From an uncultured Lachnospiraceae bacterium (GTDB lineage Bacteria; Bacillota; Clostridia; Lachnospirales; Lachnospiraceae): DNA of 36,449 bases. Positions 23,121-25,730 of this stretch are shown here, piece by piece (within the stretch, counting starts at the first letter, position 1; every line of letters starts with the position of its first letter). The translations under genes and the position numbers were made by a program. The notes under the pieces are model-generated. The model ran no database searches and had not been told where the DNA came from. It saw only the letters and a list, made by a program, of their open reading frames with translations. Location: NCBI GenBank assembly GCA_947630595.1, contig CANRIG010000028.1, positions 1 through 36,449 of the forward strand, in the 5' to 3' direction.

Positions 23121-23627
23121 TTACATGAGACTGACCCTGCGCGGCGCGATCCGGCGCACATCCTCGAGGATCTCGCTGTTCAGCTCCAGGCGGATGATCT
23201 CCTGCGTCTTGTCCGTATTGATGACCGCCACGTATTTCTTCGCCTTCTCCTCCCCGGAAGAAAAATCTTTGATCTTCACGCCCTGGCGGTTGACGTAGCT
23301 GTCCAGCGCGTGGGAGCCCTCCGGGGCCAGCATCTCAATGTCGTGCAGGTCGTACCCGGCGATCCGTTTGCGCTTCTGCTTCGCGTAAATGGCGTCGATG
23401 TCCAGCTCGCCGTTCACATAAAGGTATTCGTACTCCACGTCGAACCGCGGGAGCACCAGCCACCACAGCAGCACCCCCAGAATCACGGCCACCGGCAGCA
23501 GCAGCGGCATGATCAGAATCCCGGCCGCCGCAATCAGCACCACCAGCGCGATCAGCGCCGTCTTGGCGAGCAGGTCGGTCGACGTCGGTTTCTTCTTGAC
23601 CAAAATCTCCTGATATAAATCGCTCAT
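23121..23627 (-). CDS. DUF6106-like membrane protein
   Basis: The 168-residue protein (MSDLYQEILVKKKPTSTD) has a short cytosolic head, two close hydrophobic segments (about 20-60), and a cytosolic C-terminal half with FDVEYEYLYVNGELDIDAIYAKQKRKR, a pattern I associate with DUF6106 of Lachnospiraceae; the name is from memory. Function is unknown. GGAGG is eight bases before the ATG. The gene is separated from groEL by the repeat element and from guaB by its promoter, so it is likely monocistronic. Confidence 0.75.
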   Translation of the reverse strand: MSDLYQEILVKKKPTSTDLLAKTALIALVVLIAAAGILIMPLLLPVAVILGVLLWWLVLPRFDVEYEYLYVNGELDIDAIYAKQKRKRIAGYDLHDIEMLAPEGSHALDSYVNRQGVKIKDFSSGEEKAKKYVAVINTDKTQEIIRLELNSEILEDVRRIAPRRVSLM

Positions 23628-23768
23628 CTCTTTTTCCTCCGTGTGTCTGTCGTGCATAAGGTTACGGTTCACGCGAACGGCTTTGCGGCGCGGGCGAGCC
23701 GTAACGATTCTGTAAGGTATTGTAGCACAAAAATGAGGGGGCGTCTATTGGGAATGTGAAATAAGTAA
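23628..23768. other. Intergenic region before the duplicated element
   Basis: No gene is seen here. It should hold the promoter of the DUF6106-like gene, but no convincing pair of hexamers was found. Confidence 0.4.
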
Positions 23769-24028
23769 GCAATGAGCCGTGCCAGCTCGAGAGCTCCGCT
23801 CTCTCGCTGTTCGGCATTCGCCGAATCATTCACCGTCAAAAAAATCCGGCAGGGGAGTAAACTCCCCGCCGCTATTCTCGCCGCATTCGGTATATTGAGC
23901 CGTGCCTCAGCTCGAGAGCTCCGCTCTCTCGCTGTTCGGCATTCGCCGAATCATTCACCGTCAAAAAAATCCGGCAGGAGAATAAATTCTCCGCCGGATT
24001 TTTGCCGCTGAATGGCACGGCTCATTGC
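23769..24028. repeat. Duplicated structured intergenic element with inverted ends
   Basis: The 260-bp element is bounded by perfect 15-base inverted ends (GCAATGAGCCGTGCC at 23769-23783 and its complement at 24014-24028). Inside are two direct copies offset by 125 bases: 23784-23853 and 23909-23978 are 70 bases identical. Each copy carries GAGAG/CTCTC and TTCGGC/GCCGAA hairpins and an A-run followed by a long stem. The latter differs between copies by paired changes (GGGGAG/CTCCCC against GGAGAA/TTCTCC). It encodes no protein and ends five bases before the groEL stop codon. Confidence 0.93.
23965..24003 (-). terminator. Terminator of groESL, within the repeat
   Basis: AAAAATCCGGC and GGAGAA pair with TTCTCC and GCCGGATTTTT across a TAAA loop, a 17-pair stem with one bulged A; T7 follows on the minus strand. 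It lies 30 bases past the groEL stop. A second, partly degenerate copy is at 23840-23871. Confidence 0.9.
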
Positions 24029-24032
24029 TATA

Positions 24033-25730
<1,698 letters not shown>

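Follow-up and report, generated by a model that had tools for sequence, protein, structure and literature searches.

REP/REPIN sequences are intergenic hairpin repeats that are accompanied by RAYT proteins. MITEs, such as the Correia elements, are short and non-coding, carry terminal inverted repeats and are present in many copies near genes (PMC10969869). The BOX elements of S. pneumoniae are also small dispersed repeats. Their inverted ends are base-paired with each other in RNA fold predictions, the internal boxB module is either missing or repeated in tandem, the elements are co-transcribed with genes, and one composite with T-box riboswitches is reported; BOX is also reported to be over-represented between convergent genes and its mobilisation by ISSpn2 was proposed (PMC3049150). 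Comparative RNA genomics has yielded mobile or repeat candidates as well, structured motifs with many copies per genome, and the excerpt available stresses their inconsistent orientation (PMC11109978).

The window, i.e., the whole stretch of 36,449 nt that was analysed, contains directly behind groEL a two-unit array (Table 1). It belongs to a family of small dispersed elements without coding capacity that is spread across the Lachnospiraceae. No published account of such repeats in Lachnospiraceae was found in the open-licence literature, judged partly by titles. The element unit is ~135 nt long, and its terminal inverted repeats (P1) close three hairpins, the variable P2, P3, and P4. A preliminary description, made from the sequence of the window, presented the array as perfect 15-base inverted ends around two direct copies. 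The ends are indeed perfect (100% complementary), but they measure 17 nt. Both direct copies were re-found (23783-23871 and 23908-23996; 89 nt, 96% identical) and so were the two paired changes described in the adjacent hairpin, as the units differ only at 4 of 89 positions, all in the apical stem, where two G-C pairs are replaced by A-T pairs. Under a rough model, the chance that four random differences in 89 nt form such pairs is about 3e-6 to 2e-5. A repeated 35-mer has two occurrences in the window versus a mean of 0.00 in shuffles, and the TTCGGC/GCCGAA (P3) and GAGAG/CTCTC (P4) stems and the closing arm TGAGCCGTGCC are all present. What had to be corrected is the frame of two copies: the array consists of one complete unit (24035-23897, minus) and a second one, which has no 5' arm of its own and is closed off by the far inverted repeat.

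Table 1. Coordinates of the array behind groEL and of neighbouring features in the window.
Feature	Position	Strand	Remarks
Two-unit array, whole	23768..24029	-	folded strand is minus, the same as groEL
Unit 1, complete	23897..24035	-	full-length covariance-model match, 73.1 bits, E 1.7e-17
P1 5' arm / terminal inverted repeat	24013..24029	-	AGCAATGAGCCGTGC
P2 of unit 1, variable long hairpin	23952..24014	-	GC stem, then AUUUUUUU; terminator-like
P3 hairpin, unit 1	23935..23950	-	TTCGGC-GAAT-GCCGAA
P4 hairpin, unit 1	23908..23934	-	GA/GA internal loop, GGA triloop
P1 3' arm, unit 1	23897..23905	-	GCACGGCTC
Inter-unit spacer	23872..23896	-	
Apical P2 hairpin, unit 2	23847..23871	-	two compensatory pairs differ from unit 1; then ATTTTTTT
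P3 and P4, unit 2	23783..23826	-	second covariance-model match
Far (3') arm of terminal inverted repeat	23768..23784	-	
Native groEL terminator remnant	23719..23750	-	left arm lost; continues into the next gene's -10 (from empty-site comparison and promoter-like match)
groEL (Cpn60)	24033..25727	-	3 nt from stop codon to inverted repeat
DUF6106 gene, downstream	23121..23672	-	

On both strands, the array folds better than all 200 dinucleotide shuffles (z -11.1 for the minus and -12.0 for the plus strand). A covariance model, R1, was trained on a 24-sequence MAFFT alignment from which the window copy was left out, and it finds the window unit, outside the training set, on the groEL strand. In the 24-sequence alignment, two-sided changes were observed in 28 of 46 pairs, and the covariation score is 0.389 compared with 0.160 after shuffling and 0.075-0.106 after sliding; for 105 matches in a model-fitted alignment, the corresponding values are 41 of 46 pairs and 0.575 versus 0.143. 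The selection on structure that had been suggested from the two units of the window is borne out by these changes, and each copy is predicted to encode a four-way-junction fold on one strand, in which P1 closes the variable P2, P3, and P4. G-T is more frequent than A-C among paired cells, both in the unfitted MAFFT alignment (33 vs 8) and in the model-fitted one (148 vs 31), and the minus strand gives the more stable fold in all five other copies compared, by a margin of just 0.6 kcal/mol in one; hence the fold belongs to the groEL (minus) strand. The P3 loop is GAA or GAAN in 95 of the 95 copies parsed (of 98); since GGGCGA was part of the pattern used to collect the 98 copies, this finding is informative only for the remainder of the loop. 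The commonest P4 apex is C(GNA)G (39/95 copies, simple finder), the commonest P2 apex is C(TT)G (28/95), and tandem G-A is seen at three places in 12-19 of the 24 sequences. Loops of the C(GNA)G and C(TT)G type occur, as does tandem G-A, in stable hairpins of RNA and of DNA, so the strand is fixed but the molecule, RNA or single-stranded DNA, is not. The folded strand presumably acts as RNA. The stability of the motifs in DNA would also suit a purely selfish MITE-like repeat, whose fold serves transposition as single-stranded DNA and whose placement and orientation reflect target preference and tolerance with no host role; we consider such a repeat an unlikely explanation.

R1 has 20 matches in the genome of the window (3.31 Mb, 151 contigs) and at least one match in 32 of 40 genomes of the genus, this one included, with a maximum of 40 matches in one relative. 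A copy number between 0 and 40 within one genus is in favour of a selfish repeat. These many dispersed copies with conserved ends are what the preliminary description had expected of a genuine element. In a sample of the phylum, searched with stricter filters that may miss weak matches, R1 was found in 5 of 398 genomes including that of the window, all five from one family, which the record titles give as Lachnospiraceae. The end sequence, with at most one mismatch, occurs 31 times in the genome of the window versus twice for the reversed control. Ten distinct complete copies, that of the window among them, were found there; their P1 and P3 cores are constant, whereas P2 differs strongly from copy to copy. 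When genomes of named species were scanned with a pattern, at least 115 stretches were obtained, and 80 listed titles include one non-Firmicutes group (Phycisphaerales) and two entries named just "bacterium". The Phycisphaerales locus (L084) was rejected as a chance pattern match, because R1 finds 0 in that genome. The complete genome of Claveliimonas bilis c-25 has 16 R1 matches at 14 loci, and Parablautia sp. Marseille-Q6255 has 31 matches. Positions and scores of the latter coincide with those in G016, a relative from the genus of the window, which is thus probably Parablautia. No copy was found in viral contigs with the exact pattern, nor in plasmids; a human-faecal phage record (MT835504.1, 25824-25866) contains 44 nt that are 84% identical to P3-P4, at a marginal E of 9e-3. 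Arrays are also found elsewhere in the family, one with four units of 131 nt in the genome of the window (C4) and others with periods of about 147 and 75 nt, and 61 nt. In L287 (C. bilis, 75 nt) and L034 (C101 of the window's genome, 61 nt), arrays of shortened units lie beside one complete unit. Paired inverted ends with a module that can be repeated in tandem resemble the organisation described for BOX (PMC3049150).

The position of the element was surveyed upstream of 110 distinct copies of the at least 115 listed stretches (L084 and copies with short or repeated upstream sequence were dropped), accepting as -10 hexamer at most one mismatch to TATAAT and counting the distance to CAATGAG. 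Among the matches listed, the distance from the end of the hexamer to CAATGAG is exactly 11 nt in 40/110 copies and 8-14 nt in 56/110; among the other 54, 21 follow a T-tract and 33 show neither. The R1-found set comprises 42 loci of three genomes, with three loci dropped for short upstream sequence, and R1 excludes the -10; here, a -10 is present at 25 of 39 loci and at exactly 11 nt at 21. The exact distance therefore holds in a third to half of the copies. Orientation was read from codon-scored, heuristic gene calls. In tandem-gene regions, 63 copies are sense and 4 antisense among 114 listed pattern-found loci, 14 of them without a callable downstream gene (binomial p 1e-14), and 21 are sense and 2 antisense in the 42-locus set (binomial p 7e-5); both p values overstate the case, because several loci share one genome and some loci belong to both sets. 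Orientation cannot be read from divergent regions (21 and 15 loci, respectively). Convergent regions are rare, 4 of the 114 listed loci and 1 of 42, in contrast to BOX, for which such sites are reported to be favoured and for which a fixed -10 spacing is unmentioned in the available part of the source (PMC3049150). The consistent orientation also differs from the inconsistent one stressed, in the excerpt available, for the comparative-RNA-genomics candidates, which are likewise structured motifs in many copies per genome (PMC11109978). Calls based on the longest ORF are messier, and codon-scored calls were used instead; the longest-ORF counts in the pattern-found set (+E+ 42, -E+ 31, +E- 12, -E- 6, the rest of the 115 listed neighbourless) point the same way, and those in the R1 set (+E+ 13, -E+ 15, -E- 6, +E- 5, ?E+ 2, ?E- 1; n=42), with 13 vs 6, agree weakly. 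Sense orientation and a fixed -10 distance are new and go beyond the claims of the preliminary description. Transcripts of the -10-class copies would begin inside the element.

The genes downstream are unrelated, presumably DnaJ-like, dGTPase, glyA, pfkA, mutS2, valS, rpoA, and others, named from protein starts, and the median gap between element and start codon is 116 nt. Claveliimonas bilis and Parablautia (L285, L300) each have a copy at the -10 before a gene that we take, from its protein start, to be mutS2-like, either by shared ancestry or by repeated insertion. In another Parablautia locus (L127 5154-5571, minus), a T-box leader (Rfam RF00230) is closely followed by a copy, which comes after a T-tract and precedes a gene resembling a substrate-binding protein gene; this neighbouring T-box is the sole hit of the Rfam search, in which the window region and 15 loci gave no family at gathering score. 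The position of this copy right after a T-box leader resembles the T-box composite reported for BOX (PMC3049150). Sense strand, 5' UTR position, and conservation of P1 and P3 would all be expected of a leader RNA with a cis-regulatory role, either riboswitch-like or bound by a protein, which was duplicated by accident, but unrelated downstream genes, the long gap to the start codon, copies at 3' ends, and dispersed copies with empty orthologous sites make this improbable. Still less credit can be given to a mobile uORF or leader-peptide element using the AUG in CAAUGAG. Many copies of the 79-nt class do have an ORF that ends at a conserved UAG (23 codons in 30/95), and in 41 class-A copies a weak tilt towards an ORF is seen (9 in-frame stops vs 16 and 16 in the other frames); however, over all copies, stop codons are about as common in the AUG frame (37/95) as in the others (44/95 and 40/95), and the uORF reading was rejected. 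With respect to the selfish repeat, the placement speaks both ways. Among the matches listed, T is found at -10 relative to CAATGAG in all three site classes (51/56, 20/21, and 26/33 for copies with a -10, with a T-tract, and with neither), as target preference would give; tolerance alone, however, does not explain why the 5' end lies at a single, exact spacing from the -10.

Occupied and empty sites, whose comparison had been proposed in the preliminary description, were both found at cdaA and behind groEL. At cdaA, a 3'-truncated R1 copy is present at 1 of 30 loci, in G022. The occupied site reads TGATATAATG, then the copy from TTCGCGAAAGC to GGGCGA, and then ATTATAATTAG; in the near relative G005, whose upstream region is similar, the empty site reads TGATATACTG joined directly to ATTATACTG. 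Because the empty site has the same -10, the cdaA promoter is native and not element-borne. A promoter carried by the element is ruled out at cdaA, as relatives without the element share this -10. At this one clean -10-class site with its 3'-truncated copy, there is no target-site duplication, in agreement with the earlier statement that none was clear, and, to the extent that the truncated end can show this, no base was lost either. Insertion without duplication would also be compatible with a selfish repeat. Correia-type MITEs differ from the element in both respects seen at cdaA, the missing duplication and the native promoter (PMC10969869). In the interval between pgk and tpiA, R1 copies were detected at 7 of 30 loci, with scores of 63-67 bits in five cases and 33-35 bits in two, and some of the remaining loci have remnants or other repeats; in G020, the element supplies the stop codon of pgk. 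Comparison of L351 with L352 in this interval shows another short palindromic insert, AATGAGCCGGGT...CTGGCTCATT, with repeated AGAAAACAGATG flanking it, which is absent in the relative. The dgt locus (L009 / L315) is uninformative as an empty-site test, because the upstream region in the genome of the window, promoter plus element, is unlike that of most relatives read.

The suggestion of a "MITE-like or REP-like" element thus holds in part. Terminal inverted repeats, small size, lack of coding capacity, and dispersal make the element largely MITE-like, with the exception of the target-site duplication, absent when the occupied and empty cdaA sites (one site, 3'-truncated copy) are compared. 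Among the end-sequence matches of the window's genome, no long element with these ends, i.e., no parent IS, was noticed. The REP-like part is not supported. Intergenic hairpin repeats are shared with REP/REPIN, but a hit to PF01797 (Y1) is absent in 8 of 12 draft genomes with at least 10 copies, and Y1 presence does not follow copy number (p 0.29); a Y1/RAYT mobiliser is therefore unsupported, and mobilisation was probably due to an enzyme other than a Y1 transposase. The missing Y1, the one transposase examined, also counts against the selfish repeat. The elements were presumably once mobile.

In the groEL survey, 38 of 40 genomes were matched and 30 loci fetched, 28 of which have a readable 3' side. 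The element directly follows the groEL stop in 8 of these 28 (in L184, where the contig ends after 105 nt, as read by eye), at a shared spot with TGATAAAG or TGATATAG before CAATGAG or CATTGAG. The groEL tree places the window and five others in one clade with support 100/99, and G019 and G002 elsewhere. Since the six occupied loci belong to one supported clade, they go back to one old shared insertion. Occupancy needs a minimum of three changes on the tree (the starred branches force three), so the spot was either hit again twice, in the lineages of G019 and G002, or lost repeatedly elsewhere; its occupation in three lineages would fit a selfish repeat with a target preference. Empty groEL loci have a hairpin ahead of the next promoter, which was matched by pattern in 10 of 17 parsed loci and recognised by eye in six more, L209 being cut. 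In the two non-clade lineages (L191 3121-3260 and L200 3142-3275), the element occupies the same spot and the native terminator is intact, its stem being kept in G019 and, by eye, in G002. In the clade, this stem is gone in 4 of the 4 members with enough sequence for a judgement (window, G022, G044, and G050), as G003 and G005 (L182, L184) end too early. The fold of the element, on the other hand, was kept. Similar four-stem folds are predicted for the five typed clade members and G019, and P1 changed on both sides in G044 and G050. The identity of P3-P4-P1 among the five typed members is 68-95%, while that of P2 (G005 untyped) is 47-71%, with a shuffled mean of 46-48% and 6 of 10 pairs within the range of 40 shuffles. 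The preservation of the fold by compensatory changes during loss of the native terminator stem is difficult to reconcile with a repeat devoid of a host role.

The array may have replaced the native transcription stop of groEL. By eye and by fold, the P2 of the window is a GC-rich stem with a U-tract, although the array region received no terminator call from a consensus-based scanner, probably due to a bulge in P2. The longest T run of P2 in the clade is 7 in the window, 6 in G022, 5 in G050, 4 in G003, 4 in G044, and 2 in G005 (cut after 105 nt), and in the other lineages it is 2 in G019 and, by eye, 2 in G002. A terminator-like P2 is thus present in half of the six clade members and absent from both lineages with a native terminator. 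This is suggestive of a terminator takeover without proving it, and P2 would then terminate groEL transcripts. Half of the clade has no marked U-tract, which is in favour of the selfish repeat. Over the family as a whole, a T run of at least 5 in the 3' half of P2 is found in 17 of 98 copies, and so the supply of terminators, which the preliminary description attributed to the element in general, looks local rather than family-wide; it is plausible for the groEL copy, where the native stem was lost. The G002 lineage aids the reading of insertion at transcript boundaries about as much as the T-run counts weaken that of a terminator.

We propose that copies insert in sense orientation at transcript boundaries, i.e., just 3' of a native -10, after the T-tracts of terminators, or at stop codons. 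They would then be co-transcribed as a 5' leader or a 3' tail, and their units would become repeated in tandem. In the clade of the window, an ancestral insertion behind groEL would have been kept as the native terminator decayed, and groEL transcription would now stop at P2 hairpins with U-tracts, which would also protect the 3' ends of the transcripts. This explanation as a whole, takeover of the groEL terminator included, appears probable to us. A more specific mechanism is offered only tentatively, and we would sooner doubt it than not: the element might target open promoters, with the folded strand entering the exposed non-template strand of the transcription bubble within ~3 nt past the -10 and becoming the standard structured 5' leader of many unrelated housekeeping mRNAs, and terminator bubbles might give rise to the T-tract class.

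Small dispersed repeats are known already, but sense-oriented insertion at an exact distance from the -10 is an unusual choice of target, if true. Many of the carrier genomes come, by their titles, from gut samples, and the prediction can therefore be checked in RNA-seq data. The groEL case suggests that a repeat can replace a native terminator, and at promoters the element would give unrelated genes a common structured leader.
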